Origin: Capitulum mitella
Lineage: Eukaryota; Arthropoda; Thecostraca; Pollicipedomorpha; Pollicipedidae
Direction: 5' to 3'
Length of the DNA: 64,000 nt
Assembly: GCA_030062745.1 (NCBI GenBank)
Contig: CP099848.1
Span: 711,501-775,500 of the forward strand
The position numbers and the translations under genes were made by a program. The notes beneath the pieces are model-generated. The model worked only from the letters and a program-made list of their open reading frames with translations, did not search any database and was not told the DNA's origin. Below, piece after piece: positions 23,400 to 62,400 of the stretch; the first letter of the stretch is position 1; each line of letters begins with the position of its first letter.

Positions 23400-26300
23400 C
23401 TGGCGAACCGGACAGTGGATCGTCAGAACGACGTACGAAGCGTCTTCGTGCTCGGATGTCAACCGAATATGATTTTATCTGAAGTGATTTTACGAAACCT
23501 TATTACATGGAACTTTTTGCAGTGAATGGATCGTTTTGGCCCATTTGGATATCGTGAAACAGCACACCATGGAACTGGTAAATCTCTTGTCGCATTTCGA
23601 AACATTCTCTGGGAAACTAATACGAAGGCATCTATAATTCTGAGGCCGCATTTTTCACCTAACCTTCCTATTGATCCTCTCAGTTTAATAAATCTCATGA
23701 TTGCTATGCAATCCGATTGGCATTTTCAGTCACCATGCAAACAAAGCACAGAAAGGAAGAGATCTGCCACACGACATATGGCAACCTGCTTCATCATAAT
23801 GCCGTCACAGGGGTCGTGGCTGATAACGAGCGAGAGACTATTTATCTTTTGGTTCACAGCGTTACCTCACGAGGTCCCATTTTCCGATTTGATAAATGTT
23901 TGTACGGTAATTCACGGACTGCCCTGTTTTAATAGTTGCGGCAATACTCTGGTCCGAGAGTGCCCTAACCAAACATTTATCTGCTTGAATCCCTGTTGGT
24001 CTGAATGGTTGATCACTGTAGAATGCCATCCAGTCACTCGCTGTACAGGCCTTTCGCCAGGCGCCTGTGTCGCCGTTTAGTGCTCTGGGCGCTCCTGTTG
24101 GCACTCCCATGAACGTACCTTGCTTTTCCGGTAGCAACAATGTATTGCTCAAACCTCCCACCTTAACCTCAACGCTCTAAAATGATCGATACCGGTCGGA
24201 AGAGTTCTGACCAAACCAAACCAAAAGCCCAGGGCCCGTCCCGAGCCGGTATGACGATATCACGCCAATCATACGAACGGCATGGCCATTCGCAGAGTAG
24301 AATACAGCACTCGACTCCATCGGTTACTGCTTTGAAATGATGGGCACGTGTTTTCTGTTCGTTCTCGTTAGGTGGTGGCCTGTACTGGAATCCCGTGACA
24401 GCGCTTGAACATAGTTACGATGTAGCTAAAAAATTCCAGGTGTTGCCGCCATTATACCTGTGAGCAGTCTGCTCAGTATCTGACGCAGTGTGCGAGGCTC
24501 CTTCGCCCGAATTCAAGTCCCCATCCTCGGTCTCGGGCACGTCGTAGGTGGCAGCATCAGGTACATCGGGTGGCAGGAAAGATGGCGCTGTGGTCCTCTG
24601 GTCAGTCCCGTCCGGCTGAGGCGATGGCGCCACCTTGGCGCTGCGCGCGCTGAGCCAGGCGCTGGGCTCCGGGCTCGAGTTCCGCGTGGCCTGCTCCGTC
24701 TCCGAGGGCTCCTCAGGGCTGGGCTGGGTGGGGTCGAGCCCCTCTCTCGGAGTTCGGCGCATACCCAGCATGTCCTGCAGGGGAGCCGACAATTGGATCA
24801 CATTGGATGGACTACGGAGGAACGAATCATCCGTGTTTTAATCACAGAATTACAAAGTGCCCGATTCTGAGACATGAAATTAGATGAATGTATGGAACTT
24901 GGATTCGTATGTTTACTTCATTTTCGTAGGGCGTGACTACTGTTCGTTGTTTATATTGTTGGCCATATTCGAAGCTACACCCGAAATGCATTATGCACAT
25001 TATATCCCTTCACAGGTCCCAGCACAATCAGCACATACCATTAGGTGAGATTATACTGTGTTTTTACCAGGGGCGAATGCCGAAAGCTACCGACGGAGGG
25101 GATAGCTCAATGAAAGCCTCTTCGAGGACATGGAGCCCGCTGGAGCGGTACTGTTGTCCATGCTCTTCCATTTTCGTGTAGTGCTGGACCCTTCGGGGAA
25201 ACGAACGGCTCCATCTGCCTCCATTTGGAACCGTCCATGGTCCCTTGGTTGGTACGAAACTTCTCGTCATTTGTGCATGGATTAGGGGCAAAGACTTACC
25301 ATCACGATGCCTTTGCAGAACTCCACCAGTTCGTACTGATTGCGGGCTTCCTTCAGCTCCTCCTTGACCCCGGTGAAGGTGTCGCCAAGGATTGCCAGGA
25401 ACATGTTCAGCACGATAAACGTCATGATGATGACGAACGCGAGGTAGAAGCAGACGCCGAAGCCGCCGTGCTGCTCGTACATGGTGTCGAAGTCGATGTC
25501 ACCTGCGCATGCCAGACGTCGGTGGGGATCGTTGCCATACCAGAGCTGAAGGACTTTCTACATGAGCTTCAGGAAACTGGTTTGGGATCGTCCCCCCACT
25601 TTTGCGGAATTTATCATAAGGAACAAATCATACGTTTAACTGTCTGCCATTCCACAGTCTTCTACCTTCCTGCGTTCTATACGCGTGTAGGTTTCTGTGG
25701 CATATGAAAAGGTCAGAGTATTCGGGGAATCATTTTCCCGAAGACTACGTAATCGTAAAATTTAAGAGATAAAACTCTAAAGGTGTCTTTGGATTAGTAT
25801 CACGGATGCTGAATTTCCTCGCATTTATAGTTTGCAGATACCAGGCGCATATACATTTTACATGCTACAGTGTCAAATCGTAAATCAAAGAATTTGTGTG
25901 GGATGCCGTTTTCAGCTTCAAAGCACAGAATCAGCAAGACAGTGAAAGCATATCAAATGAATACAGTTTCCCTACATCCGGCAACGCTTAACGGCGCGCA
26001 TATAGCTGACCCTTCGATGCCTTTCCCTTTTCAGATCAAGTGTAGCGACAAAGATCGAAAACGATCGACGAGGATGGGATTCGAACCCACGCGTGCAGAG
26101 CACATTGGATTAGCAGTCCAACGCCTTAACCACTCGGCCACCTCGTCACGTGGCGGCTGGGCGGTTACAAGTAGGGCCAAATGCTATCGATTAACATTCA
26201 CGGTAAACCCCGACGCAATGGCGACGCAACCGGAGGAGGGAAGGGGGTAGTTGAGGGAAGGATATAGGGAGAAAAACTTACCTTCCTTTACCAAGATAAC

Positions 26301-32300: not shown

Positions 32301-35300
32301 TGATAGGTTGATACGTCACTGACCTATGGCCTGTTCACATTAAGGCGAAGGTCATAATTGTAAAATGAGGTTACTGACCTTCTTGAGCGTTTATCCACTT
32401 CAGGAGGGGTCGCAATATAGTCGAATAATCTGATTTGCATACCAATTGTACTCTGAGTTCTTATGCATCGTCGAAAATTGTTTTGGGCTCCTTGAAAGCG
32501 TCCTATAGGTTACGTCTCATAGGATCCAACGAAAACCAAAGCCACCGACATAACCTCTTTTGAAGCCGCCTGTAAGGTCACACTGTGGCCGAAAAGAGTG
32601 AAACTGGATATCACTGTGTAGCTAAAAACCCAAACCTCACATTTCTTTTAGTTTTATTACTGTACCATGTCATGTTATTTGGAAATGACCGACGGTCGTA
32701 CCAACGAATCCTGTAATGTCGAATGTTGTCAAATAGCGAATACTGGCGACGTTGCCGGCTAGAAAGAACTGAGCTGGAGACACTGAGGCGATATTTTTAA
32801 TTCTGTTTGTCCGATCCGACAGATTGCAGTCATTGGGGTCGCGCTTGTTAGCATTATTGTTACAGGTTCTTGAGAGGAGAGTTTTGCACCGTCTTGCTGT
32901 TAAAGAAACCAGAAAGGCGCACAGGAAAATGGTGCTCACACTAAGAGACGTGCAGGCGGTAAGAAAGGTGCACACGACATGCACACTGCACATTTTTGGG
33001 TTACGTACCATCTAGATCCATCATGGATTTGTACACCCATGGCGATTTTATTTTATCGAGTTCTTCCTCAGAAGTGATGTTCAGAGGCACCCAGCTCTCA
33101 TTGTAAGCCCGTTTTTCTTCCTTCAGCCACGCGTATTCTATGTTGCACTCATCGTGGACCGCTCTGAGTTGCTTGGGAACTCTGCATTGATCTGCAGGCG
33201 GAGACGTCCAGATCATTAATTGTCTGACGATTGCTGAGGGCTTCAAATATAACAATATGAGGAGTGCGATGCGATGCGATATGATACAAGGAAAAATGAG
33301 TTTGTAATGTTAGGCTCATCATGATGTCACATTTCTCCGACTAGACCCAAATGATAAAACTCAACAGAAGTTTAGGTTCTCCGATCCCCTTTTTCAACGT
33401 ATCGCTAACACACCTACAATATTTCCCTGTACAGACGAGAGAACATTATGTCACCAAAGCTTTTAAAATGAAGACACTGCACTCACAGCATTTTTAGCCG
33501 AAGCATATAAAAAAACAATATAGACCCGGAATTCGTTTCAAAACCACCGTTAGCATAAGTAAACCTTGAGATCGCTAATGAAATGAATACATGCAATGCG
33601 CTAACCAAAGTCGGAGATGCGTGCCATTTGACCTAACGATTTATTCGCGATTAGTTTGTTCGAATTCGAACTACTGAACAGCTCGACCGAGACACTTCTG
33701 TTTAAGTTAAGCCTGGACTCTGGCTCAGCTCTGCCTGACTCGGATGGGTCACCGGCCTGGCTTGACTCAAGGTCACTGGCTCGGCTTGACCCGGACCTGG
33801 CGGACCTGGGCCGGACATTGACCTGGCTTGACCCGGACCTGGCGGACCCGGGCCGGGCACTGACCTGGCTTGACCCGGACCTGGCGGACTCGGGCCGGAC
33901 CCAGTCGCAAGGTCATCATGTCCGACATGAAGGGACGGTCGGCCGGCGGCGTCTGCTCGCCGTTGTACTGTTGATCCCAGAACACTGCGCTCAGGTAGGT
34001 CGCCCGCAGCCACCGGTAAAAATGGCGCGGCAGGCGAATCTGGCGCAAGAGGCAGCGTCAGAACATGTTCAGGCTAATGACTGGCGCCAGACTTTATGAC
34101 GAGATGACAAGAAGATGAGACTCTACCGAGGCAACAGGAAGAGACTTAAGACGTAGAGGCCTGAGGCCATGAGGGATGTGCGTCCCAACTCACAAGAACA
34201 TAGCGATGTGTGAGCAGACAGATTTGTGAGACATGACTGGCCCTATTTAATCCATCATTACAGAAAAAAGGTTTCAAAAGGCTAGTTGAAACAGAAAGAA
34301 AAGGCGTAGTTAAGGGATGAAGAGGAACGAGAAAAAAATGCAGCAAACACTCTTCTTGACAGTTTGACATGTTAACAAAAATACGTGGGGATAAACTTAC
34401 AGCGTCGTATTTGCTGTCAATCAGCATGTTTTTCAGGTTGTTGTTCACCAAGAAGGCATTCGGGTTTCTATTTTGCTGCGCCAGGAACAGTAGGAAAAGC
34501 AAAAACAGCATGTAAACACACATTTGCTTCATGAGCAGCAGCATTTCTTTTTCTTCCAAGCGTTTCTGTCGCGCTTTAGCCAGTGCCTCTTGGTCAATGG
34601 GAATAGCATCCAGCTTCTTGCGCCTCCCTGAAAACAAACGACGGATTGAATGAAAACTCCCCATGTACTTCATAAACCTTGTTTTCTGCCATTCCTTCAA
34701 AGTATCGACTAAACGCAAATCATTGACAAAGCGAGTGAATTACCAGGCTCAAATGAGAAAGTTTATATTCGATGGGCAAAAACTTAGTGCGATTTTCCAC
34801 ATCTGCGAATCTTGAGCCTCCGTCCAGTTCAAGACGTTGACAGGGATCTCTCTAACATAGACCTCAGTTTAATTTAACCACGGTGCTATCTGACATTGGT
34901 CTTGTTATATACAGATATATGTAATGAAGTGTATAATATGAACATATTGCATATGTCATATATGGTATATTGGTCTCGGTTGACTCGGCACTCTTTCGCG
35001 CCGGTCCCAGTTGACTCCAGTTGACCCTGGAGCTGTTCCAGCCGACACGGCACCCTCTGGAGCTGGTCCCAGCTGACCCGGCCCCGGGTCCCGGACTCAC
35101 CGGAGAGAGGCCTCTCGCCAGTCATCTCCTCGTCGTCGGCGGGCAGCGCGTTCTGCAGGGCGCTGTCGTCGTCCACCGCCTCCCTGTCCGGCTTTTTGCA
35201 GAGGATGCTGAAGACGAGCGCCACGCAGAACACCTTGGCCGGCTGGATGAAGCAAACGGACTGCACCACCGAGAGCAGCATGGCCTTCAGCCAGCTCAGG

Positions 35301-38300: not shown

Positions 38301-41300
38301 TTGGCCGCCTACGCACTATACACAAAGGTAGGAGGTAAACACCGAGTGGACCGAAATAAATCCGCAATGTCTCTGACAATGAAACAAATGTTTTGGATAC
38401 GCGGCAGAACTGTCCGTAATGGCGGTTTTTTTCCAGTAAGCGGTGGAAAGTTAATCATTTTATTTTTTAAGTCATCAAAAGATAAAGCTCATTACTCACG
38501 TATACTCCTAGAGCTTTATGAGCGTCAGAAAATATCCCACAAGCAAAACACTCATCCCTCTTTGTCCTGTTCTTCCGCAGAGCACATCCATATTTATTTA
38601 GGTTTAATTTGTTAGTTTCAGCAGCAGCATGGCATGCAGTTATCTTTTTTAACCTTTCCCATGCTAATCGCCATTAACATCTCCTCTAGTCGTCTGTGGA
38701 CCTAAGCGTCAGAGAGTAAGCTGAGCCGCCTAAAGACGCCCAAATTGATTAATAAACAACATGCTATGCAACAGGAAAAACATAAACAATGCTCATGCGT
38801 TCACCCTAAAATGAGGTATAAATATCAATGTTTGTTCCATAACGCAAACAATAAAAAAATCTTAAAAGGCGAATCAAGCGATTTTTCGCGCATTTCTTCT
38901 TCCAGCAGTCACCTTTTCCACATCCTGGCGATCTTTCCTGCGTGCCCACACGACGACCACCAGGTAGATGACGACGCAGCAGCAGATGAAGACGAGCACG
39001 GCGAAGTTGTCGCGCAGTTTGGCGTCCAGGTTGGAGTAGGCGGCGGCGAAGTCGATGGTGTTCGGAGGCACCACGAAGTCGCCGCCGAAAGACGTCAAGT
39101 GGTTGCACAAGCAGTGGACGAACTTGCTGTTGGAGAGTGGGCTGACCTGGTGGCAGATTGCAGACGTCAGCATAAAACGCATCACTGTTACTTCTCTGAA
39201 ATTTCTGACGAACGATGAAAGCTTGGCAAATGGTCCAATCAAAATGAACTGTTTTGCAACTGTCGCTATTATGAGGACAGGAATAGACAGGACAGCAGCG
39301 GAACAAGCTTTCTTGGCTTATGGCGCTGTACAGTAAAAGTTAATTAATTCAGTTTTTGTCCTCCTGTCCCTACACATTTTCGCTGTTTTGACGCATGCAG
39401 CTGCGGCCTGTTCCTGGGAACAAGTGCACACACCGTGTTGTGAAGCACCCGGACGATCCCATTTGTCCAGAGACCAGGAGTAGAAGTCTGTACCGACCTT
39501 GCAGCCGCGGGTCTCCCAGACCTCCAGCGTGTCGTTCCAGAAGTAGCACGCCGGCGTCACCATGGCCATCGAGTAGTTGCTGAGCTGGACGAACTCCCAG
39601 GGGCTGGGCGTGCTGCGCTTCTGGTAGTCGTACGGCCGGGTCGTCAGCTCCGGAACGTCGATCTCCGATTCGTTCACTAGGAGTCCAACAGCAGCGGTTA
39701 GGCGCAGACGGACGCGTCTTGACGTTCCGTTTTCTTGGGGGAACCGAGCGACACGACAGTGCACTAAACACGACGTAAATCGAATGAGTGGTCCAGGAAA
39801 TACAACTTCTCTGTCGTGGTTATCGACGCAAATAGCCATAAGTCTCTTCAATTTCCACTTCGTCTCTAGAATCACGAGTTCAGACTAACACTGCATCTCA
39901 TATGCTGACTGTGCAGTTAAAATATCACAGTCCTTAAATTCCAGGTCTACTTGAGCGAGTGTCACAGAAGATGGCGAGCAAAAACGAATATTCAGATACG
40001 CCGCCGCATCAGTTTCCACGTAGCCAGAAGACATCCGGCACCGACGTTACCTTGCTGTTTTACGACAAAACTCCATTGTCCAAGGCCCAACATCCGAATC
40101 GCCGCGTTACTGACGAGGATCGAGTGAGTCAGCTCATCGACCAGCTGTTCGTCCACCTTCGTCATCTCCTCAGATACTTTCTGGAAGTGAGTGGGTATAG
40201 GAGTTGAAAATTCAGTCGATGGTAATTCAAAGGCTTAACGCAATACCTAAATTTGGCGAATATTCGAATATGTACCTCATATTTCAGCAATGAAATATAA
40301 ATGTTTCATCCAAGTTGTTGCCCAGCATTGGAATGCTTCAGTTTTAAGGAATGAAAATTATGAAGCGTTAGAATGATCGTCATAATTATTGTGAAGATTA
40401 TGGTCCTTGTCAGGTGCTGTCACAGAGTAAATTTGAGGACGGCAATCACTGCTATCTAAACAGTTAACATTTAAATATCATCCATACGAAAGTCAGAGCA
40501 ATCAAAGAAAAAATCATTCGAATGTCAGCTGTACACGAAAATACTGAGCAGTGTTTATAGACCCATCCCCAAGCTCTGCGAGTTAATAGAGACAGAACGA
40601 CAACGAAAGCCGATATCAATAGTCAGGAAACAGCGTTCAACTTGTAGATGAAAAATATCTGTTGCCTGCTCTTTTCAGTCTCTTCTTGCTTAATGATACG
40701 GTTTTTATCACTTCATCTTTCTCATTCTGGTATGTTATTCGGAATAGATATGGTATGTTATGGTCTCAAGCGTAATGCAGTTACAATAATATGCAGAAAA
40801 TGGTACAAATAGTCAAAAATAATGCGAAAACGAAAACGACACTTCAGTACTGCAGGCATTAAGAAACATTCTGTTGCTATCATTTTATGCCCTGCGAAAA
40901 CGAACAGATACACGGTGTGAAGAGTAACCTGCACCTGCAACTTGAGCCGCTCAAATTTTTACCCTGAGCTCGAGTTTGCTGAGATACCACGTATCGTTCA
41001 GCGGTGGGTGGGGAATGTTGAACAGGAAGTCGTAGTCCGTGGGTGAGGCTTTTCTTCCCTTCGCCACCCAAATGTCGAATTTGGCGTCTTGGTCGGTGGC
41101 GCTGTCAGAAAGCATGTGTTAGATCCTTGAAAGCATTAAAACGGACCTAAGCTGACACTACAAGTCAGACATATACGCGTATGTGCATCGGGAAATTCAC
41201 GTGAATGCTAAAGCGTGGGGTGGTTAATTCTGGTCAAAATATCGGCACTGGATTTTATAAACAATTTTAGTAGTCCCTAACAAGGACTCTATCTTATCAG

Positions 41301-44446: not shown

Positions 44447-47400
44447 TTCTATATATACATATAATGAATGGATTAAAATACCCCCGCATCTGGCACTGTA
44501 ATTACAATTTATCTAACAAGAACATCATTTTTTTTTTAGTGTCAGAAATTATGATAGATTCAATAATGGCATGAACGTTTTTCAGACGTTTGAAATCTCT
44601 AAAGCCGTATGCAGTAAAAAGATATGTGAAGAACCGATAAATTTGCATGGAACAAATCGGCAAGATAATGAGATAGCCTGTGTCTCACTTACCTGCCCAT
44701 AAATGCATGATTATTTGCCATAAGAAAAGAGCAGTAAACAACAATGGGTCCTCCAGCATGGCCACACTACACATTACCGTTTTCAGACCGACACTATGTT
44801 ACGCGATTCTCACGGTGCATTACAAGCTGAGTAAACAGCCCCAGACGCCGGGACCGACCTGGGTGGTGACCGCACGCCGCGCCTGCCGCTGCACGGGAGT
44901 CATCTGAGTCGCCAGCTCCGACTCGGTGGTGGTCGAGAGCGGCGACTCCGTGATGGACTCGGGCGTCTGGTGGAACGCCGCGAACGCCACGTTCCCGATG
45001 GCCGCAAGGATGCCTGCGGCGGCCACGGCACGGTCACACACCAAAGATCATCCGTCCAGTAGGTAATCCGACAACCAACGAAATCGTCATCAAACGTTAC
45101 CAGTTATCTGTTACGGGTAAACTGGTAGATAGGTACATCTGTAGATAGCAGCATGTAAACAAAAGTAGATATGGGAATTTGAGACAATGCAAAGAAAGAC
45201 AGGGGACGGAGATATTTCCAAAGCTGAGCTCATACATGAGCTGCTGTCGTCCCGAGAGACACATATCTTTTCACGGTTTCGACACCACTTTCACCGCACT
45301 TTTATGTCGGACGTCATCAGTAAGGTCCAGAGTCCTGTGGGTGGTCCGTACCGGTACAGGCGCTGATCACTTGGTCTCTGGAGGGCGTTTGACCAGATTC
45401 GCCCGCGGCAAAACTGTCCACCTTGCTGGCCATCTGGGTGGCGAACTGGAGCGTGCGATTCGTGGACTCTGCTGATACCTCGCTCGGCTCGGCCGTGGAC
45501 ACCTTTAGCGCCCTGCATAGACACAGGCCGTAAAGGTCAGAGAGCCCTGTATAGGCACAGCCCATGAAGACCAGAGAGCCCTGCACAAGCACAGGCCGCA
45601 ACAGCCAGCGGTCAGCTAGGTCTTTGGTCAGAGATCACAGTAATCTGCAGTTCACTGCCCTGACGTTCGTGGATCACATCCGGATATGACAAACGACTTA
45701 TTACGTGCGCTGGAATTTGATTTTGATTTTAATGAGAATTAAACTTACTTCAAATTTAAGATCGAAATGATCACGGACCAATTATTGGACACCATAGTTT
45801 TTTGGTCACAACCAAAAAAGTGAATAATAATAATATAAGGAAATCCCTTATATCCTTCAATTTGACTCCGATGTACCGAAGCTTTAAGAGGGATTAGACG
45901 GATAGGAATTGGAAAGACAGGAATAACTGAGTTCAGTTATTTCTGTCACTGCAGCTCGCTTGCCGTAAGCATCAATTTACCTACTACCAGACTGCAGACT
46001 GTTCCCAGTCATTTTCCCAAATAACTTTTCAACAAACTGGCCGACTGTTGCAAAATTTTACCAGTGTATGTTTAGAACCCTGACGTAACTGAAACCAGAA
46101 TCGGATTTTGAATGAATCCGAAATTCACTATTGATCTTACCATTAACTCCTTTAATTTCCCTCTCCCACTCCCATTTCTATTTCCAATGCCCTAGTTGAG
46201 ACGCTACTAACTTATCTTTAGCGGCCAGCGCTGCCAACCCAGCCGCTAGCATAGCTTCGGGAAAATAATTTATTGGAAAGTCACGCGGTTCTCTATGTTT
46301 ACCCCTTTCCTCGACACTTCATTAAGAAAACCTCTACGCAGGAAACCCCTTGTTACTAAGAAAAGCTACATTACCGTTCAATGATAAACATACTCAGTTG
46401 TGGCTCATTTTGTGTTTAAATGCAGCAGGAAATCATGTTTGGATTTCAGTTGTGGAGGTACGGTTCGGTAGTAGAAGTTGGAACATGAGTGACGTCAGTT
46501 CCGTGCGCGGTTAAGCATTTTGGTGCACATAAAAGTGGCTCAATTTGAAAACATGGCTGGCGTAATTGACGTGGAGTTTCGTTGAGCCATAAACAGGACT
46601 CCAGTCATCAAACCGCCGACGTATGCCCGTAAAACTTGTCAACGCATGCCCGATAAGCCGACGACAAATGGCTGGGTATTTTGCGTTTCGACGGGCCGGG
46701 TATTTTGCGTTTTGACGGAGGAAGAGGCCGCCGCCGTGGTGGTCGGCCGTCTCGGGTGGCGAGAACCACAGGGTGACCCACGCGGAGGCCGACTCGATCT
46801 GCTCCACGTTGTTGATGGGCGCCTTGACGATGGCGTTGATGAATTTGTCTCGGAGCTCAGTCCGGTGCTGGCGCTGGCTCTCTGTCGTTCCTTCGGGCGT
46901 TGAGCTGGACGTCGTGTTGGATGGCTCCTGCACAGGGGGACCAGACAGACCGTGATGGCAAAGTGCCAGTTTGTTTGTGAGCGTAGGGCGAATTTGCAAC
47001 ATTATTGTCGAGAACAAACCAAACAACGTATCGTTTTCCATTGTTCTGGTCCCGTGTTATTCTGATAGCTGTGTCGTGCGTTGACGCAAGGATTGCAGAC
47101 ATGGGGGACCAAGGTCACCTCGGGCGATGACCCAAACCAAGGGCACCTGGGGGGGAGGGGGGAGGGAGGACCTGGCATTTTGACAGAGGTCAGGATCGAG
47201 AGTGTTCGTGGGTTTTGTATTTGTGTTGCATGAAAATGTCAAGCCGCACTATGAGCATATGTTGCTGAGGGCGAAGAAAGCAGACAGAGCACCTCAGATT
47301 GAGAATGAACGGACAAAAATACAAATAAGAAGTCTTTGTTTAGTACACAATGCTCCAACACCATTCGGTAAGATGTTACCGCGCCGGAAAAACACTATTT

Positions 47401-50400
47401 GCTCCCAAAAACTGTAAAATTTGGAATGCTTTCCCATATATTAAAATACGTATGTTTTACCTCTGATCCCATTAGGGCTGCCGCACTTCTTGTTCCCCGC
47501 CCATTCACTGACCTCTGCCAGGCTCTCGTCGTCCTGTCCTGCCCCATCACTGACCTCTGCCAGGCTCTCGTCGTCCTGTCCTGCCCCATCACTGACCTCT
47601 GCCAGGCTGTCGTCCTCCTGTCCTGCCCCATCACTGACCTCTGCCAGGCTGTCGTCCTCCTGTCCTGCCCCATCACTGACCTCTGCCAGGCTGTCGTCCT
47701 CCTGTCCTGCCCCATCACTGACCTCTGCCAGACTGTCGTCCTCCTGTTCTGCCCCATCACTGACCTCAGTCGTGCTCTCTGCTGCCTCTGCCGCTTGTCC
47801 GTTCAGGATCTCTGCCATGTTGGTGATAAGCAGGTTGGCCTGCTGGGACTGGCCAGACGAGATGAGGTCGCCGACGTTGTCGCCGGTCTCCTCAATTAAC
47901 TCGGTGAGTTCCTCGTCGTTCAGTTCCACCTCGGCCACCTGCACATCGGATCTCACGTGAACCACGGGATAAGACTTTGTCGTCATGCCAAACCGGGCAC
48001 TGTTGCAAGAGGACAGGCAGAATTAAAAAAGAATGCAGTTACGCAAAATAAAAGAATGGGGATGCTGTGTAAACAAACCCGATGTCTTCACAGGATCAAT
48101 GTCCCACACATGCCGCAAAACAGCGTAAACGTTGAAAAGTTCGGAATCTTTAATAACCGAGACCGTAATAACTGGGACCGTGAGACCGTTTATGACTGGA
48201 AGAAGCGGGTATGTTCAGTCCTCCCCTTCCAGAATGATCCCAAGGAGGGCTTTCAACAGCATCCGAGCACACTAGCCACCCACTCCTCAGTCTGCCCCCC
48301 CCCTCTGTGCCCTTCCCCGCGGCGGCGGAGCGGCGGCCGGCCTCACCCGAACAGGGACGATCATCTCGACGAAGTCGCCGCGCGGCTGGCTGACGCGCAC
48401 GGCCAGGTGGCGGCTGAAGTCGCTGTGCGCGTCGCCGGCGCTGAGCGTGAGCTGCGGCCCGACCGGGTCCGGCCCGTGCGAGACGATCTGCCGCTCGTCG
48501 GCCGACACCAGCCAGGCGTTGTAGCTCAGGCCGTCGTCCGAGGCCGTCTCCGGGTTCAGCCAGCCGGCGCAGTGCACGGCGAACAGCGTGCTCAGCGCCG
48601 TACCTGCCGGCGGCGCGGAATACAGGCCAGGTCGGCCAGAGGCACGAGGAATGGTGTGGGTGGATCCAGTAGGAATGGTGTGGATGGATCCAGTAGGAAT
48701 GGCATGTGGACGGATCCAGTAGGAATGGTGTGGATGGGTTTAGTAGGAATGATGTGGGCGGATCCAGTAGTAATGGTGTGGGTGGGTCCAGTAGAAATGG
48801 TGTGGGTGGGTCCAGTGGGAACGGTGTGGGTGGGCCCAGTAAGAATAGTGTGGGTGGGTCCAGTAGTAATGGTGTGGGTGGGTCCAGTAGGAATGGTGTG
48901 GGTGGGTCCAGTTGGAACGGTATGGGTGGGTCCAGTAAGAATGGTGTGGGTGGGTCCAGTAGATGAAAAGCAGAAAGTGGCAACGGCACGGCGAACGGGT
49001 AGGGAAACAACGGGCATGACTTCGTGTCCTGAGCACATGGCGATTGCAAGAGAACAAGCAGGTCATGAAGCAGGGGAGGAAATAGAACAGAGAAGGGATT
49101 CCTCACGGCTGAGAACAAAACCCTTCAGGTGAAGATTTGGGACAAAAGGACTTGGTCTCCTGAGCCCCGAGCAGAAGTGGAGCAAAATCTAAGTCTAATG
49201 GAAAAAGGCGATCTTTAGAAAAGTGCTCCTCATCGTTATGAGCAGACATGTCGCACGGTTTCATTCGGCAACCGAATGCTTCACACGTACAGTTTTACAG
49301 CTGCCGTGGCACCAGCGCCGCAAGGCGTCCAGCTCTGATCCCAGCCCGGGCACACAGGGCAGCTCGCAGTCGGAGCGACCCGCGCGCCGGCGGACGGTCA
49401 GCGCCGCCGACTGACCTGACGGCGGCTGGACGGAGCAGTTGCCTCCGTACGGCGGCTGGCTGGTGGTCACCTCCAGCTCGGTGAAGGCGGTGGCCAGGCC
49501 AGGCGTCTCGCCCTTCAGCCTCAGCACGTACACCGTGTTGGGCAGCAGCGAGTGCGGCTTCAGCAGCAGACTCCTGCCATGCAGGCCTGGCGGCACGGGC
49601 GGCCGTCAGCGACCGCCGAAAGCGACGCACCTGACAGCGTCACGCAGCTGACAGCTCCACGCAGCTGACAGCCTCGTACAGCTGACAGCTTCACGCGCAG
49701 CTCGCAGAGGAACGCTGGCGTCACTGCTGAAGCGCAGCAGATGCGGCCAGCAGTGATCCTGGTCCATTCAAGCCCGCCTGGAGGAGATTAGTCATCAAAG
49801 AACGGAAGGCGTTGATAAGCATGAGGCCACTGTCTGATCCGTGTTTCTGTTGCTGGTGACGGCTGCCTAATGCTGTTAAAGTTTGTCGGTACAACTGTCG
49901 GGCCCAGCAAGGCCCAACCTCAAGAAAAACAGCCTGGAGCTGTGATGTAATCATGAGGTAATAAGACATTGTCCATTATGTTGGCGAAACGATTTTTTGT
50001 CGCCCTTGTTGCCTTTTAACATTTTCGTCGACATCGTATAACGTCATGTTCCATTTTACATTAAGGCCTTTATTTTCATCCACCTCATTTACTCACTGGC
50101 TTGTGAGCCATGAAAGAATGACAGCAGTAGTTAAGAATAGGCATTTTTTATTCCATTCCTTGCTTCCATGTAAGCATAAATGCCAAGCCCAGGCATTTTT
50201 TTTACGTTTTACCGTCAGCCACGCTCACCTAACTACCTACTGTTGTATCCCTGCCCGCTGTTCTGCTTGCGTCCCTACCCTGTTTTTACGAACCAATTGT
50301 TCAGCCTCCATCAGGCGTAAGCAGCTAGTCTTTATTTAAAGATTTTTTTTTTAATTTTTCGTGTGAGGAATGGCTGGCTCAAATCACACGTATATCAATA

Positions 50401-53400
50401 CGTAGGAGATATATGAATAAACACAAACATGTGTGTAAGTGCCTAGGACTAATTTGGACCTCCTAATGTTCGCGCTGTTCACCACACAAGATATCGTAAT
50501 AATCAGGAAAAATTCATGCTATGCCCATTATTCAGCAATGTTCATCTGATGCGCCATCTGCGACAATGTCTTCGATGTACGTCAATCACATCCACCGTCC
50601 ATCCAGCTACGCGAATTGACATGCTGTGCCGCAGTACATGTCGTCTGACGGCGCAGCCTACCTGGTCCTCATGTCCGCCGTCGTGGAAGCTGATGTCCGG
50701 TCAAAATGGCGAAAGGTAAGAATGGCGAATGCCTTTTGGCGAATGCCAGATGGCGAATGCTGAATGGCGACATGTAAAAATGGCGACTGGCCAAATGACA
50801 ATCGGCAAAATGGCGACATGTCAGAATAGCGACGTGTAAAAATGGCGACTGGCGAAATGGGGAAGGGCAAAATGGCGACATGTAAAAAAGGCCACATGCA
50901 AAGATGGTGAATGGCTAAATGGCAGACAAAAACACATACCATATGTGTACATATATGCATATAAATGTACGTACATATACAACCAGGTATGTTCTGAAAG
51001 CTCATTCTTGCTAATGCAATTCTGATTAGACAGCGAAATTAGTTGTTATTATTTTCTTCCTCGGGCTTCCTGTACTCCTTACAAATTTTCTCTACTTCTT
51101 CTCCACGAAAAAGTGCAGGCCTCCAAAACCATGCAGCGTTCCGTTGAATCCCATGAACATCACCAGGGAAACATTCAAGCACATTACACATCCACATGAC
51201 ATGTCTAGCCAACATAAGGCACACGTAGTGGAGTTCTTTCACTAGGTAAGCAGGACACCGACCTGGGGACAGCATGCCTTTGGATCACACCGGGGCCCGG
51301 CAAACTAGCCGACCATCTCATCCAGCTCCAGCTCCGTGGTTCCCGGACGTAACGTGCAAAAGCGGGAGAGAAAGAAAGAGGGGGGAGGGAGGGGACGGAC
51401 GGACGGACATTGTTGAGGATTTTCCATCCTCGCTACGTTTGTGTCACGTGACATTGGCCAACATCCATTGTTTTTTTTCCTTTTTTGGAAGGGGAAAATG
51501 ATAGGAGCTACCGATTGCCGTTCGGTTTTGTTTCTGGCCGCATTGCTAGATCCTCCTGAGATGACAAAAGGGGGATGTCGGAAGCAAGCATCAGACTACT
51601 CGTAACTACCCCATGGCCTGGCGATAAGATCAAACTCTTGGGTCCCGTGGCACCGGGTTCGGGTCCCGGAGGAGAACTATTATCAAGAGGCCAGCTTGTC
51701 AACGGACTTATAAGGTCTGACCTGGCACAAGGCGGCTGTACCCATTTCTCCATTTCTGGGCCGTTTCGCCGTTTATTCGTTTGACATTTTTACATGTATA
51801 CACGTAACCACCTGGCCGTTCGCCGTTGTGGCAGTCTCCTTTTTTACACGCCGCTATTTAGCCATTCGCCATTAAGGCTGTCGCCATTTTGGCATGTCGC
51901 CTTTTTTACACGTCGCCATTGGGCCATCCACCATTTAGCCTTTCGCCATTTTGGCTCGTCGCCTTCATCACATGTCGCCATTTGGCCATTTGCCATTTAG
52001 CAGTTCGCCATTCTGGCACGTCGCCATTTTTACAAGTCGCCATTTGGCCATTCGCCATTTGGCCGTTCGTAATTTTAGTACGTCGCCATTTTTACATGTC
52101 GTCATTCAGCGTTCGCAATCTAACATTCACCAAAAAGGCATTCGCCATTTTTACATTTCGTCATTTCACCCTAGTGCCGTCAGACTTCTGCGCCAGTTCT
52201 CCAATCTTCGAAGCTTTGCACAGCAAATACTATGCGTGACACGCTGGACTCTGTTCACTATCATCTCGCAATCCACTTAAAGTGCAGACAAATACAAAAC
52301 CAATATTATTAATGTCATATGCATCAGCAGAAGTATCAACGGCAAGATTAAGGCCCATCACATTGCTTTCCCATCTTCAAACAGGCGTCGGGCGTATGTA
52401 TAAAGCCCTGGGTGTCAGTATCCACCACCACGGCAAGTTCACAAACCTAACCCTAACAAATGTATTACCCAAACAACCCTGTCTGTTCCATCTCATGCAG
52501 ACTGAATGAATGAATCGTATGTGCCCTAATGCATCTGTTGGTGTATGACCCAACAGTACATGGCCCGCACGGCCTGACAACTGATAAGGTGTCGTTACCA
52601 TTGGCCTCAACGAATACACGTTGCGACCACTGTTCCAGACAAGTTCCATCATTTTCCAGTATGCCTACATTGCTTAAGATTAAAATCTACAAAATATGTC
52701 CACCAAATGCCACATATATATCAAATTCGGGTAGAAATATAACTAGCTCGTATCACATCAGATGTATTGTTTTTTCTAATCCTTCTGTTGGCCTCTCAAA
52801 CGCTTTTCGATGCACCTCAGTCTCATTTATCTTGCATCGTATGCTCCAGCAATGTCCATGACTCCAAGGTCAAAGATGCAGGCAGACTTTGGGCCACGCT
52901 TTGGGCATGGATCTTTATGTCTTTTGATGATTGTACGGTTTTGCGCAGGACATGTGTCATGTATGGCTTGTACCAATCGCAGTGTGAGTCAGTTTTTCCC
53001 CTAATGACATTTTATTGGCTTGAGGCATATTTAGTCAGTTTTTAAGTAATCCCGAGAGCGCAATAGTATGTCAGCATTGTGGGCAAACAAGTGATATGTT
53101 GAATTACGATGTGTTACGGATCCCAGACCTCACCTGTTTCGTCCGTGAGACTGTCAGTATCCGTGACCAGCAGCCTGTGGCCTGTGCTGTTGACGCGGTA
53201 GATGGTCCAGCTGAAGACGATGCCGCGCCGGCAGGTGGGACACTCCCCCAGAAGGGACAACTCTGCCACGGTCGTGACCAGCTTGCCGCAGTTGCTGATG
53301 CATCTGCGGGGCCAGAAGGGCATCAGCCCTCCGCAGTCATGCTGAAATACCCCCTAAGGAAACCCGAGAGATCCAGTGGTTTTGCGGTGTCGCACAGCAA

Positions 53401-56400
53401 AACCAGTGTCTTTTCCTAACCCTGGCATCCCCAGCAGACTGGTGGGCGGGAACAGATAATCTCGCTACGGCAGCTTGGCGCGACAGTTTATGTGAAAGCG
53501 GGCCAAGGCAAATCTGCCTCGTGGGCACAACGCTCACGTGATGTTGATGTCTGGCGGGTCTCCCTCGATGATCTGCACCGACTGGGTGGCACTGGCCGTC
53601 TTGGTGCCGGCAGTCACCAGTGCCACCAGGTGGATGGTGACGTTGTGTGGCGAAAAGTCTGAGCGCAGTTGCAGTACACCTGGCGAGACAACCAGGTTTA
53701 TCTGCGAGTGATCACGTCGGGTCTTACAAGGCGCCGGATCACAGCGCAATCGCAATAATCTGTTCTTGTCAGAAGCGATGAGAGTTTCTAAGCTTTTGGG
53801 GCTGAAAGACTGGAATGCGTCCGAGCAGGTAAAAAACCGGCAGCTAGCACACACTCAGAGGACTCTCCAGTCAGCATGTTACCAGGAATGAACTCGGGCA
53901 GTCGACTTATCCCTGTATTAGAATGTTCTGTTTTATAGTTCCTAAAGCCTCTGTTGTGCGTCTCCCCGTCCCTGATTGCGTCCCTTGAAACAGACACCCG
54001 CCACGATTTCCATCTCCTGACCGGTGTCGTTGGCGACGTCTAGCCTTCCCGGACCGGAGCCGAAGCAGCCGCCGGCGTCGTTGCGCTCGTCGATGTACTG
54101 GGGCTCGGTGGGCACGGCCACGAGCGGCGCCCGCTCGGTGGACGGCTCCGCCTCGCCCTCGCGGTAGCAGAGCCAGACGAACGTCCAGCCGGCGACGTCG
54201 GCCGGCGCGTCGGCGTCCGGGTCCGTCGACAGCGACGCGGCGTCGACGCGGAAGGGCCGCGCGAAGCCGACGGCGCGGCCGCGGCCGCCGGCCAGGCGCA
54301 GCTGCAGCGGCGTCGTGCGTACGAACAGGAACACGCTGGCTGACTGCCACACCTCGGGCACGGACGTCATCGTCACGGTCAGCGTCAGGTTGTAGCGCGC
54401 GCCGGCGGCAAGCGTGCCCGGCGCCAGGTAGGCGGAGGTGGTCGCGCCGCCGTCGGCGCCCTGCAGCGCCGGCAGCGTCACCGGCGTGTTCTGGTAGTCG
54501 ACGTCGCCGACGCGGGTGAGCAGCGAGGCGGACCAGACGAGCGTCGCCTGCGGCGAGGAGGGACAGTCGAGCGTGACGTCGCGGTCGATGACGACGGCCT
54601 CGGAGCGGCGGTGGACGCGCGGCTGGTCGACGGTGCGCCCCGCGCCGGCGATGCGCACCGTCGGGTACCGGCAAGGCCACGACGTGATCGACACCGTGCT
54701 CGCCGTCAGCGACTCGGCGATGGAGTTGAAGGCCACGGCCGTGGCGTAGAAGGCGCCGGTGCGCGGGTAGTCGTGCTGAACGACGGTCGGGTTGGTGACG
54801 GCCCGCGTCTGGCGGTCGTAGGCGACGCCGGCGCGCACCTGCGCCAGCAGGGCGTCGCAGGAGGCGGCCGAGCCGAGCAGTGCCGCCGCGCCGTCGCCGA
54901 ACTCGACCAGCAGGCACATGTCCGTGCCGAGCTGCTCGAACTCGAGCGACAGCGTCACCGACTCGTTCAGCCGGCGAGGCCCATCGTTCGAGAGCCGGCG
55001 CACGGCCGTCCGCTCAAGCAGCGACGCGTCCACGCTGGCGGTGGCCGACGACAGCGCGTTCGACGCCGTGCACGTGAAGGTGTGCGCGCCGGCGCCGGGC
55101 GGCCGCGACGTAAAGTGCGGCTCGCGCGAGGTGACCGCCGGGTCGCCGACGCGGCTGAACTCGAAGCTGACGTCCGAGCCGGACTGGAGCCGCGCCGAGA
55201 CGCGCACGTCGTGCGTGGCCGGGTACGTGCCGGCCGGCACGCGGTCGCTCTGGAACGTCTCGCCGGTGACGCGGTTCAGGCCGGAGAGGTGCAGCGTGAG
55301 CCCGGCGATGCGCTCCAGCACCGTCAGCCGAGCGGTGCGCGTCACCATGCCGAGCGGGTTCGAGGCCGTGAAGCGCAGCGTGAACACCCCGATCTGAGCG
55401 TGCGCGCGCGTCACCGTCTCCTCTTGCGTGGCGTTCTCCAGCAGGGCGAGGTCGCCGTCGCCGAAGCTGAGGATGAAGGTGAGGTCGGAGCCGCTGGCGA
55501 CGCGCATGATGTAGGTGACCGCCTCTGTCGCCAGCGTCGCCTCCGCGGACAGCGAGAGCGAGGCGTTCTCGATGGGCGCGACCAGACGAATCGAGCCGCT
55601 GAGCATCGTGAAGCTCAGGGAGTTGGAGCAGTTGGCCACGAAGTCAGTGTCGCCCGGCGTCATGGCTGACGTCTCCAGCGGAAGGACAACCCCCGACAGT
55701 TCCGTCACAACAGTGCGCTCCGTCGTGCCCTGCTCGGATCCAAAGCTCCACTCGCAAGACACGCCGACAAACGAGTCATCTTCGCTGATGATCCGAACGA
55801 CGGTACCCGTGAGGATGTTGACGTTCTCGCTTGTCACCAGGGAAAGCGCGCCGGAGATATTCCTCCTGACGACCACCACGTCAGGGACGACAACGGTCTT
55901 CTGGCTGATGGCGTTCGCGGCCGACACGGTGACGTTGAAGTCGCCCTCCTCCAGGAACACGTGACTGCGCTCGAGCTCGTGCAGCCCGTTCACGGTTCGC
56001 GTCGCGAGCGACGAGTTGCCGTCGCCCCAGTCGACCGTCATGTGGACGACGGAGAAGCCGTCCAGCTGCACGGTCAGGTTGACGGCGCCGCCCACCTCCA
56101 GCAGCGTGGGCGCGACGGCAGTCAGCACTTCGTCAATCGGCTGCTCGAACATCAGGACGGCGCTGACGGTGAAGTTGCTGACCTCGTTGCGGAGCACGGC
56201 GGTCGCCTCGTAGGTGTTGTTCTGGACCCGACTGAACGGATAGTGGTGGGAGAGGCCGAGGGCAGCGGGCACGGAGGGAGTGTTGATCACCTCGTGGAAC
56301 TCGGAAGAGCCGTCGCCGAAGTCCACTTCCACCCATATCGGCTGATACAGGTATTTATGACCTGTGCAAGGACATTGGCGTGTGAACTGAACACCAGCAG

Positions 56401-59400
56401 CGGAGGGTCTCCCGGCAAACCTAACGGTCAAATGGGGTAACATCCATTCCACAGAGATTTCGGAAACTGCTGGGTTTGGAAAAAAAAAACATTCCCAGTA
56501 GGACACCGAGCTTTTATGACATATTATGGCACATTAACAATTTCATATGGCAAGTCATTCAAGTTAAATTGATTGATTTTTTTTTTCTACCGAAAATGTT
56601 ATTAAGCACACCTAGGCGGAAACTCATTGCTTGAATCGTATTTTCACACGGAATGGCTGCCACGAAACGTAGGATGATTTGGTTCCCCTTCGTGGGGCAT
56701 GCTAAATGCACTAATCAAACGTTTCCCTGTACCAGAAACGCGTACTTATGCAGTAAAACTGCGAAAACGATCCAAGTGTTTTTTTCGTAACTGTTGTTTT
56801 GTCCATGAACATCCGCGCTCGATATGAAGTTCGCAGTGATAAAAGGGAAACAGCGGCTGCCCGTTACCTTCGAAGACCAGCGCGATGGCTGCGATGCTCT
56901 CCGGCAGGGCGACGGGTACGTCTGTCACCATCCGGATGCCAGAGAGAGCTCTCCGCACCGTGACAGAGACGTTTTTGGACAATGTCTCCACGCCGTCGCT
57001 GCATTCCACAAACGCTTCGACATCTCCTTCTTGCTGGAACGGTGAAAGTGGGATTAAAGATTTCATCTAGTAATTCTTAAAAATAAACAACGTCTTTCAA
57101 ATAGGTGTAATCGGAACCCATTCGTTGACAAAACATTACGACTGACGTCCTCCTCATGTCCAGAAAGACATTCCATTAAGGACTCAGGCGAACTTATGTC
57201 ATGTCCAAAAAGACATTCCATTAAGGACTCAGCGACGGATCAGGACAGAACTCACCTCAGCCGTGAAGACGTGCTCTCTGGACAAGCCGCCTCCTCCTAC
57301 GACCGTGAACGTGTCGTTGCTTCCGTCGCCCCAGGCCAGTGAGCAGAAAAGATTCGACGGCACCAGATTGCTGACGACCAGGGCGTGGGGATGGCCCACG
57401 GCTGCGAACGGCGACTGAAATCGGGCCGTGAAATCGATCAGCGAACTCGTTGTCGCGACAGAAGAAACTGTCGACAAGGTTTCCAGGGCTGTAGTGATCT
57501 CGTCCGTAACTTCTGAAGCTGTCGATGCTGTTGATGTCGCAGCGTCGGTTGCAGTAGAACCTATCGAAATTGTTCCAGATACATCTGTTAGGCCCTCAGT
57601 CGCTGCCGTAGAAGAACCAATGGTGATGACTGAGCCCGAGGATCCATCTGTCGCTGCGCTGGTGGTCAGAGTAGTCTGGCTTGATCCGAAGGACAGCGAA
57701 GTCGAACTTGTGGCGCCAGACGTGGATGTAAGCCCTGCTCCTGCGGTGGAGGTAGCGGGCGCAGTCCCTGTCCCTCCTGGGATAGCAGAACCTGTACTCG
57801 TTGGCTCCGTGCCCCCTGTCGAAGCGATCGTCTCCGTCGTGATGTCTGGCTCCGTTGTGTCGATGGTGGTAACTTCGACCACGACCGTAGATCCTGTTGC
57901 TTCATTTGTTTGTTCGGTTGGTACTGTCGGCTCCGTCGAAGCCACTGTGGAGACGTCAGGCGAAGAGACGTCTCCCGTCGTTATTGACGTGGCAACAGAC
58001 GTACCAGTTCCCAAAGTCAATGTTGATGAAATAATTCCATCAGTCGCATCAGTAAGCCCCGTGATGATCGACGTGAGAGAACCGCCAGAGGTGGATGACT
58101 GAGACTCCGTCGAAACAACTGCTCCTTCTGATGCCGTGCTTGCAATGGACGTCGACTGAGTTGACCCTGAGGACGCTGGAGCCGGGCTTGTCGTATCGGC
58201 TGTGGCCGTTTGGTCTGTTGCAGCAGCTGAAGTATCAGTGGTGGTGTCTAGCTCGCCGGGGCTTGCAGAGGCGACTGTCGTCAACTCTGCCTCTTCCGGC
58301 GTCGTGACCACCACTGTTGTCGTTTCCGGTTCTGTTGCGTCCACAGTGGTAACTTCGCTCGCTACTGCAGATACAGAAGTACCACTTATGACCCCGGTTG
58401 TTGCCGCTGATCCCAATGGAGTCAGGGTTGTTACGTCAGACGTGGTTACAGATCCCGTTGTTACTGATGTGGTCACAGAAGCACCACCGAGAGTCGATAT
58501 GGCCGAAGTAACGCCAGTAGTAGTGTCAAGAAGCCCCGTGGTGACTGAAGTGATAAAATCACCAGACGTAGAGGACTGAGGCTGCGTCGAAACAACAGCT
58601 TCTCCCGTCGGCGTAGCAGTAGAGGAAGTCGAGTGAATTGACGTTGAGGAGGCTGGAGTGGAACCTGCGGTAGCGGCTGCGGTCGTCACCTCTGTTGCCA
58701 CAGTCGGGGTATCAGTTGGGGTTCCGGCCTCACTTGGAACTGTAGAAGTGACGGTCGTCGACCCTGCCTCTTCCGGCGTTGTGACCACCACTGTTGTCGT
58801 TTCCGGTTCGGTTGTGTCCACAGTGGTCACTTCGCTCGCCGCTGCTGATGTCGACGTATCACTTGTGAACCCGGTTGTTGCCACTGATTCCGATGGAGCC
58901 AGGGTTGTTACCTCAGGCGTGGTTACAGATCCCGTTGTTACTGATGTGGCAAGAGAAGTACTACCACCCAGAGTCGTCATGGCTGAAGTAACCCCATCAG
59001 TCGCACCGGCAAGCCCTGTGGTGATTGAGCTTATAGAACCACCAGAGGTAGCAGACTGGGGCTCCGTCGAAACAACGGCCTCTTCTGTCGTCATAGCTGT
59101 GGAGGAAGTCGACTGGGTGGCAGCTGGAGACGCTGGAGTGGAACCTGTGGTAATGGCTGTGGTCGTCATCTCTGTCGCTACGGTTGAGGTATCAGCTGTG
59201 GTGCCTTCTTCGCCGGTGACTGTAGTGGCGACAGTCGTCAACTCTGCCTCTTCCGGCGTTGTGACCACCACTGTTGTCGTTTCCAGTTCTGTTGCGTCCA
59301 CAGTGGTAACTTCGCTCGCTGCTGCAGATGCAGAAGTACCACTTGTGAGCCCGGTTGTTGTCTCTGATTCCGGTGAAGCCACTGTTGTTATATCAGGCGT

Positions 59401-62400
59401 GGTCACAGATCTCGTGGAACGACTGATTTCGGTACTGACTGATGATCCTGAAGAAGCCCCCACCGTTGTTGGTGCCATCGTTGATGCGACGGCGCCCGTT
59501 GTTGCTGCCCCTGGTGGAGCCACAGTAGGGGTATCAGTCGTAACTGCAGGTCCCGCCGTCGGTACCACGGCACCCTGAGTCGTGACTCCTCCTCCTCCTC
59601 CCGTTGCTGCCTGGGAAGTAGCCTCACCGATGGTCGCCGTTTCCGTAGAAGGCACCGACGAAGTGCTCACTGCACCTCCCGATCCCGTAGAAGATGAAGA
59701 GGTAACCTGGTTAAGAATTTCCAGCCCTGTTGTCTCAGTGGACAGATCTTGAGTTGTAGCCACTGTTTCCGTGGGGTCGACTGCAGCTGTGACAGCCGCG
59801 CTCGAGCTTTGAGAGGCAGTCTCGCTCGGTCCCGCTACATGCTCGGTTGTACCAGCAGACCCTGTCTGTGTCGACGAAACTGCGGCAGCGGACTCGGTCG
59901 TTACATCCGACCCTGAAACACCGTCAGTCGTAACCTCAAGCGTAGTTTCTGGTAATGAGCTGCTGGCATCGACTGCAGCTTCACTAACGGTTTCACTTGT
60001 CAGCGCAGGTCCTGTTGTGATTGCGGTGGTGCTCTGACTAGAAGCAAGTTGCTCCGTTGTAGCTACAGTTGTGGCCTCACTTGTAACAACAGATCCCGTT
60101 GTAGATGCGGCAGTATTTGTAACTGCGGATCCTGTTGCAGCCGCAGTGGTGACCCCAGTCGTAGCTGCAGATCCTGCTGTAGGCACAGAGCTAACCCCAC
60201 TTGTAGCTATAGGTCCCGTTGTAGCTGTAGCAGTGACTTCACTTGTGATTAAAGGCCCTGTTGTAGGTTCAATGGTCACTTGAGGCCCTGTTGTACCTGC
60301 AGAAGTGATTTCATTTGTGACCACAGGTCCTGCTGTAGTAGTTACATCACTTGTAGGTACTGGCCCTGTGGAAGCCACCGTGGCGACCTCACTTGTGCCT
60401 GCAGATCCTGTTGTGTCTGCAGTGATGACTTCCGTAGTAACGACAGGCCCTGTTGTAACTGCAGCAGTGACTTCGCTGGTAACTACAGGTTCTGTTGTAG
60501 CCGCAATGGTGACTTCACTTGTAACTGCAGGTCCTGTCGTGGCTGCAGCACTGACCTCACTTGTTACTATGGGTCCTGCTGTAGGCACAGTGCTAACCCC
60601 ACTTGTAGCTATAGGTCCCGTTGTAGCTGTAGCAGTGACTTCATTCGTCACTACAGGCCCTGTCGTACCTGCAGAAGGGACTTCGCTTGTGACCATAGGT
60701 CCTCCCGTAGGCATAGTGGTGACTTCACTTGTAACTATAGGTCCTGCCGTAGGCACAGTGGTGACTTCATTTGTAGCTACTGGCCCTATGGTAGTTGCAG
60801 TGTTGACCTCACTTGTGCCTACAGGTCCTGTTGTAGCTACAGTGGTGACTTCACTGGTAACTACAGATCCTTCAGGTCCTGCTGTAGCTGCAGCAGTAGC
60901 TTCGCTTGTAACTGTAGGTTCCATTGTAGCTGTAACTGTGACATCACTTGTAACTGCTGGCCCTGTTGTATCTGCAGTGATGACCTCGTCTGTAGCTACT
61001 TGTCCTGTTGAAGCTGCAGTGGTGACCTCACTTGTAGCTACCGGCCCTGCTGTAGCTGCAGTGGTGACCTCACTTGTGGCCATAGGTCCTGTTGCGGCTG
61101 CAACAGCGACTTCACTTGTGACTGCAGGTCCTGTTGTACCTGTAGTGGTGACTTCACTTGTAGCTACTGACCCTGTTGTAGCTGCAGTGGTGACCTCACT
61201 TGTAACTACAGGTCCTGTTGTGTCTGCAGTGGTGACTTCACTGGTAGCTAAAGATCCTACTGTAACTGCAGCAGTGACTTCGGTAGAAATTACAGGCCCT
61301 GTTGTAGCTGCAGAAATGGCTTCGCTTGTAATTGTAGATTCCATTGTAGCTGCAGTGGTGACCCCACTTGTAGCTACAGATCCTACTGTAGGTACAGAGC
61401 TAACCCCACTTGTAGTTATAGGTCCCGATGTAGGTGTAACAGTGATTTCACTTGTGACTAAAGGCCCTGTTGTAAGCTCAGTAGTGACTTCATTTGTCAC
61501 TGCAAGTCCTGATGTGCCTGAAGTAGTGACTTCACTTGTGACTACAGGTTCTGCTGTAGTTACAGTACTGGCTTCACTTGAAGCCAGTGGTCCTGTGGTA
61601 GCTGCAGTGGTGGCTTCACTTGTGGCGACAGGTCCTGTTGTAGCTGTAACAGCGACTTCACTTGTGATTACAGGTCCTGTTGTGGTTGCAGCAGTGACCT
61701 CATTGGTAGCTATGGGTCCTGCTGCTGTTGCAGTGGTGTCTTCATTTGTGACTGCAGACCCTGTGGCTTCAGTAGTAACCTCACTTATTTCTGCAGGTCC
61801 TGTTGTAGCTGCAATAGTGACTTCACTTGTAACTGCAGGTCCTGTTCTAGCTGAAGTGGTGACCCCACTTGTAGCTACCGGTTCTGTTGTAGCTGTAGCG
61901 GTGACATCACTTGTGAATACAGATCCTGTCGCATCCAAGGTAGTGGTGTCACTTGTAACTACAGTTTCTGTTGTGACCGCGCCAGTGACTTCACTTGTGA
62001 TTTCAGGTTCTACTGTAGGCACAGTAGTGACCCTACTTGTAGATACAGGTCCCAATGTAGTTGCAGCGGTGACCCCACTTGTAGCCATAGGTCCTGTTGT
62101 AGCTGTAACAGCAACTCCACTTGTGACCACAGGCCCTGTTATAGTTGCAGCAGTGACCTCACTGGTGACTACAGGTCTTGTTGTAGTTGCAGTGATGACT
62201 TCACTTGTAACTGCAGGTCCTGTTGCAGCTTCACTTGCATCGGTAGGTTCTGTCGTACCTGCAGTAGTGACTGCACTTGTTACTGCAGATCCTGTTGTGG
62301 TTGCTGTGGTGACCTCATTTGCTGCTACAATTCCTGTTGTAGTTGCAGCAGTGGCCTCACTGGTAACTACAGGTCCTGTTGTAGCTGTAGTGGTGACTTC

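Follow-up and report, generated by a model that had tools for sequence, protein, structure and literature searches.

In the human gene IFI6 (6-16, G1P3), a minisatellite made up of 26 copies of a 12-nt unit lies at the end of exon 2. It was described as a splice-donor minisatellite by Turri, Cuin and Porter in 1995 (NAR 23:1854), and two downstream repeat units are reported to act as donors, so that three mRNA species and differing isoforms arise (PMC4526556). Here we describe a comparable arrangement in a 64,000-nt stretch of the Capitulum mitella genome (assembly GCA_030062745.1, contig CP099848.1, positions 711,501 to 775,500; hereafter the window, within which all positions are given). The element in question is a 42-bp minisatellite on the minus strand of the window (array A, 47500..47767), for which Tandem Repeats Finder (TRF) gives 6.4 copies, 97% matches and 0% indels. 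According to TRF, pattern search and translation, its unit consists of one GAG/GTCAGT donor plus 14 acidic codons. As in IFI6, a tandem array lies over the end of an exon, here a predicted one, with a credible donor in each unit, always in the same phase. In contrast to IFI6, array A has a 42-bp unit with 14 acidic codons and seven identical donors, which are predicted, and it belongs to a PKD1-like gene. The most likely outcome, in which we have about even confidence, is that the spliceosome would use several of the array A donors and thereby give a mixture of isoforms.

Other repeat arrays tied to protein length or to splicing have been described. The coding repeat number of the prawn Rlec lectins is reported to vary from 1 to 9 units of 30 or 33 bp (PMC7536079); however, those repeats are described as lying inside exon 2, with their number set by the gene, whereas the number in array A could be set by splicing too. 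The variable number tandem repeats of ABCA7 and TERT are reported to affect splicing of their host genes (PMC5954066, PMC11830802); they resemble array A in being repeat arrays linked with splicing, and differ from it in being reported as intronic. The DDX3Y minisatellite is reported to sit in the promoter and the transcript start (PMC3039753). Among the literature matches listed, the titles and the openings of the abstracts mention no second case, beyond IFI6, of units that each carry a used donor. The first-pass annotation of the window had called a minisatellite whose unit is bounded by a splice donor unusual, which is a fair description, but human IFI6 is a precedent (PMC4526556). The arrangement is of a known kind; judged by the literature matches, the novelty lies in the host gene, the greater length of the acidic module, the perfection of all seven copies and the presence of a decayed counterpart elsewhere in the PKD1-like gene. 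Array A is a clean, testable example, not a new principle.

An exact pattern search (zero mismatches) located GAGGTCAGTGA seven times in the window, on the minus strand only and nowhere outside the array, at 47505-47515, 47547-47557, 47589-47599, 47631-47641, 47673-47683, 47715-47725 and 47757-47767. When one mismatch was allowed, ten matches were found, the extra three being at 32316, 42499 and 60548, compared with an expectation of 1.11 and a maximum of 5 in 100 dinucleotide shuffles. The donor string GAG/GTCAGTGA is identical at all seven sites and the spacing between donors is exactly 42 bp; the last exonic bases of donors 1 to 7 are 47765, 47723, 47681, 47639, 47597, 47555 and 47513. All seven are in phase 0 in the exon frame. 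Positions, spacing and phase had all been claimed in the first-pass annotation, and the searches bear them out. Since tandem duplication copies all the content of a unit, the seven donor copies represent one event, not seven. The unit is translated as VSDGA(G/E)Q(EDD/DDE)SLAE, and the 84 residues of the array include 31 D/E and zero K/R; each module has a charge of about -5. Among the six full units, unit 1 differs by one Gly/Glu change and one silent Ser change, and units 5 and 6 by Glu/Asp swaps. The sequence past donor 7 (47461..47512, minus strand) is perhaps a decayed further unit and ends in a phase-1 GAG/GTAAAA; when 47445-47504 was aligned to the array A unit, its score was reached by 36 of 1000 shuffles; two flanks were tested in this way. 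A further copy of the unit upstream of donor 1 is unsupported, as its score was reached by 253 of 1000 shuffles.

The exon bearing array A most likely starts at 47938. Its core up to donor 1 (47765..47938, minus strand), which comprises the end of the REJ region and a short linker in 58 codons, has a codon score of +30.0 bits in frame, compared with -21.6 and -46.5 in the other frames. Array A starts where this core stops, and so spans the predicted end of the exon (TRF and codon score). By exon-length arithmetic, the core ends at residue 200 of the spliced protein, in which the Pfam match to REJ ends at residue 180. The next exon (46782..46927, minus strand), with a phase-0 acceptor at 46927, was skipped by the gene finder and added by hand; its codon score is +20.8 in frame versus -31.5 and -26.9 in the other frames, and both of its 146-base flanks are negative in all frames. 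The donor of this exon, and the acceptor 45512 to which it is joined, were picked by eye from phase and the pattern of the family. All seven junctions from donors 1-7 to acceptor 46927 translate without a stop.

Splice sites were scored with generic donor and acceptor matrices of rough values and with a gene matrix built from the 26 other model donors of the PKD1-like gene, all of which are predictions. By the generic matrix, in which C at +3 counts as a defect, the array A donor scores 3.48 bits. By the gene matrix each of the seven scores 4.93 bits, donor 7 with its GAG at 47513..47515 included, and so outranks 18 of the other 26. Of the 2018 GTs in the gene body, 27 reach 4.93 or more by the gene matrix, seven of them in array A, and among the GTs from 47938 down to 46960 a score of at least 1.5 is found, besides the seven, only at 47938, 47146 and 47118 (2.11 to 2.75). 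At 3.4 bits or more, no further donor 9-mer recurs identically more than three times within 300 bp in the window, where a donor-grade site (generic matrix) occurs in 5.1% of 42-bp stretches on the minus strand, array A included, and in 3.3% on the plus strand. The array A unit boundary is a plausible donor for the PKD1-like gene. C at +3 is present in 6 of the 26 other model donors, or in 7 of 27 with array A (24634-57033, minus strand), a share that appears higher than is usual for animals. Three of these other donors are backed by a domain match, namely REJ at 49416, GPS at 39498 and the polycystin domain at 33865, and they weigh more because the match crosses each junction; the support consists of profile coverage at 49416 and 39498, and of an alignment at 33865.

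The seven array A donors are the only phase-0 GTs of the exon above 2 bits by the generic matrix, and a phase-0 donor is required whether the exon joins 46927 or 45580. Since no other phase-0 GT exceeds that score, at least one array A donor would be used if the exon model is right. The next best site, GAG/GTAAAA at 47460, has 2.61 bits by the generic matrix and -1.4 by the gene matrix; its phase is 1 and splicing from it brings a stop in the next exon, on which grounds 47461/47460 was ruled out as the true end of the exon. Two acceptors within the next exon could restore the frame of 47460 (frames judged by eye), and they score poorly, at -2.7 and -4.1 bits. A small extra exon starting from acceptor 47146 was dropped on account of an in-frame stop, read by eye.

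Two further arrays lie at splice sites of the PKD1-like gene. Array B (33783..33900, minus strand; 42-bp unit, 2.8 copies) crosses another exon end, as judged from TRF, the sequence and alignments, and its exon codes for the RVRQVRVKP stretch. Its first donor is CAG/GTCAGT, with 33865 as the last exonic base, the second has changed to GTCAAT and the third is lost; the gene-matrix scores are 7.25 for the first versus 2.80 for the second, in a matrix that includes the first donor. In two printed alignments to polycystin-2, no gap falls at the first donor of array B. Array C (45510..45598, minus strand; 34-bp unit, 2.6 copies by TRF) carries three acceptors in tandem ahead of an exon. Only the third of these (45512) reads on from the phase-2 donor at 46782, the upstream two hitting stops; from a phase-0 donor the first acceptor (45580) reads on too. 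Duplications are not enriched at splice junctions: 2 of 54 junctions have one, versus 248 of 6500 control positions, some of which lie in the repeat arrays, and array C has diverged too far to pass the threshold. Repeats across splice sites may therefore just reflect a gene that is rich in repeats.

If the exon model holds, seven equal donors and one phase-0 acceptor at 46927 would be presented to the spliceosome, and the isoforms would carry 0 to 6 acidic modules in a linker that starts about 20 residues beyond the end of the REJ match. Simple competition among identical sites would suffice for this, and no regulation would be needed. All seven copies share the same nine donor bases, and the predicted accessibility is 0.43 to 0.54 for all of them at three span limits; therefore, the sequence prefers no copy. 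RNA accessibility was accordingly rejected as a guide to a favoured donor, there being no difference among the seven. The array codon score is +5.9 bits in frame 0 compared with -17.8 and -53.4, and the codon usage leans to coding, only mildly. The open frame throughout, to which the first-pass annotation had pointed, is real but weak evidence, as four of the six frames through array A are open, and it was discounted as proof of coding. That annotation had also described donor choice as a length dial of 0 to 6 acidic modules between REJ and GAIN. Such a dial finds partial support: the plausible donor and the seven frame-keeping junctions agree with it, but array B, with a first donor favoured by homology, cautions against it. 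As to the placement, REJ is matched, but no Pfam match to GAIN was found at E 0.1 in a 520-aa spliced stretch, where exons between 41843 and 39676 are likely missing from the model. It is from sequence that we infer the use of several donors and any effect on the protein.

Several observations weigh against the use of several donors. The gene finder itself paired donor 7 with acceptor 45580 and passed over the exon at 46927, whose own donor is weak (-1.3 by the generic matrix, 0.79 by the gene one). Of 125 AGGT sites in the gene body, array A included, 42 have C as the next base, a larger share than among the donors (6/26). With so high a background, the C-type donors could be chance picks, and C at +3 alone is not telling. 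Our confidence in the use of several donors was lowered because of the skipped 46927 exon and of this background. In addition, the phase-1 site at 47460 has a predicted accessibility of 0.57 to 0.85, above the seven. The common unit scores 1.2 bits per 14 codons, a value that 10.7% of exon stretches do not exceed and 2.4% of stop-free intron stretches reach (density ratio about 2.8); unit 1 scores 0.0 bits, with corresponding values of 7.5% and 4.0% (ratio 1.45). In both comparisons the exon stretches partly trained the codon scores, and some of the "intron" stretches may be exon. Finally, the later copies of array B are most likely intron. Because homology there favours the first donor, an architecture of this type need not be a length dial, and this is the main evidence against the length-dial proposal.

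Array B also speaks for the use of donor 1 (47765) only, in which case array A would be part of the intron, a minisatellite repeating the intron's start, and the acidic module (VSDGAGQEDDSLAE) would go untranslated. Array B lies in the same gene, homology favours its first donor, and its later donors are weakened or lost. An exon that ended at donor 1 would have 174 nt, a usual length for the PKD1-like gene, while at 426 nt it would rank second in length among the 27 model exons, and duplications are no commoner at splice junctions than elsewhere (see above). However, the donors of array A are undecayed in every copy, unlike those of array B, and the frame-0 codon usage of the common unit beats 97.6% of the stop-free intron stretches; we regard the use of donor 1 only as unlikely. 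The opposite extreme, in which splicing uses only donor 7 (47513), the whole array is coding exon with an acidic repeat and none of the six inner donors is active, appears doubtful to a similar degree. From 8 bases past donor 7 onward, the unit-like sequence departs from the repeat, apparently with indels, as would fit an exon end at that place, but the outermost unit of a repeat array commonly decays too. The gene finder picked donor 7 by a margin of about 6 bits of near-neutral codon score, while the six upstream donors are identical to it and have equal predicted accessibility. Among competing donors, SRSF1 is reported to activate intron-proximal sites, which would favour donor 7, and hnRNP A1 intron-distal ones (PMC5585400).

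Tandem duplication has been proposed as a route of intron gain for a potato gene (PMC4974935), and AGGT is present at all seven sites, so that array A might be read as a set of nascent introns, with units spliced out between the AG/GT copies. The acceptors needed are poor: the best one within the array scores -1.18, no better than the weakest of the 26 other model acceptors (-1.1), and those at unit boundaries score -1.33 to -2.75 versus 3.0 for 46927. This makes nascent introns highly improbable. A stronger form of the several-donor proposal, in which donor choice would be regulated by tissue or stage and would set the length of the linker of a polycystin receptor between REJ and the autoproteolysis site, with population changes in copy number altering protein and splicing together, seems to us quite improbable. 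If it were true, arrays A, B and C would reflect tandem repeats recruited across splice sites several times independently. Equal donors at even spacing in a natural exon would in any case offer a clean test of the spliceosome's choice among identical 5' splice sites, and the protein read-out of that choice would come in steps of 14 residues. If several donors are used, a change in repeat number would alter protein length and splice-site choice together. Array B, in which the later donors have decayed, is a ready comparison in the PKD1-like gene.

The sequence suggests that the gene is a PKD1-like animal gene of the polycystin-1 family. Of 20 single open reading frames on the minus strand that were searched against Pfam, seven have a polycystin-family domain. 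Down to about 25.3 kb they comprise PKD and REJ (53945-56533), two REJ pieces below the Pfam cut-off, PLAT, the polycystin domain and two channel pieces, with E-values of 2.2e-25 for PKD, 1.9e-06 for PLAT and 1.7e-12 for PKD_channel. In spliced stretches, REJ was matched at 1.3e-23 across two junctions, GPS at 3.8e-11 across one and Polycystin_dom at 1.8e-44 across two; the spliced polycystin domain aligns to polycystin-2 at about 3e-30. As in the polycystin-1 family (PKD1, PKD1L, PKDREJ), PKD, REJ, GPS, PLAT, polycystin domain and PKD channel follow in the same order on one strand. We know of no acidic repeat linker after REJ in that family. For the stretch from the array A exon onward, a search for relatives of solved structure gave no matches at E 10.

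The gene model comes from a small gene finder based on dynamic programming, which was trained on those stretches of the PKD1-like gene that bear domains. It gave 27 exons, and there are again 27 after hand edits: 57296-57256, 41744-41725 and 45580-45352 were removed, the start at 33984 was moved to 34039, and the exons at 46927, 45512 and 33191 were added. The model omits an exon near 34740-34401 and probably lacks others around 41.8-39.7 kb and 30-25.5 kb. A tRNA gene (26066-26147, minus strand; Rfam 67.2 bits) lies between model exons of the PKD1-like gene, on the same strand. Upstream of the gene and in the same direction, there is another 42-bp repeat with an open frame (60402-62932, about 60 copies, 71% matches), and a 480-bp repeat is found at 58037-59415. 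In addition, two 62-bp arrays (50720-50928 and 51814-52106) lie about 900 bp apart in a model intron, and by eye their units look reverse-complementary.
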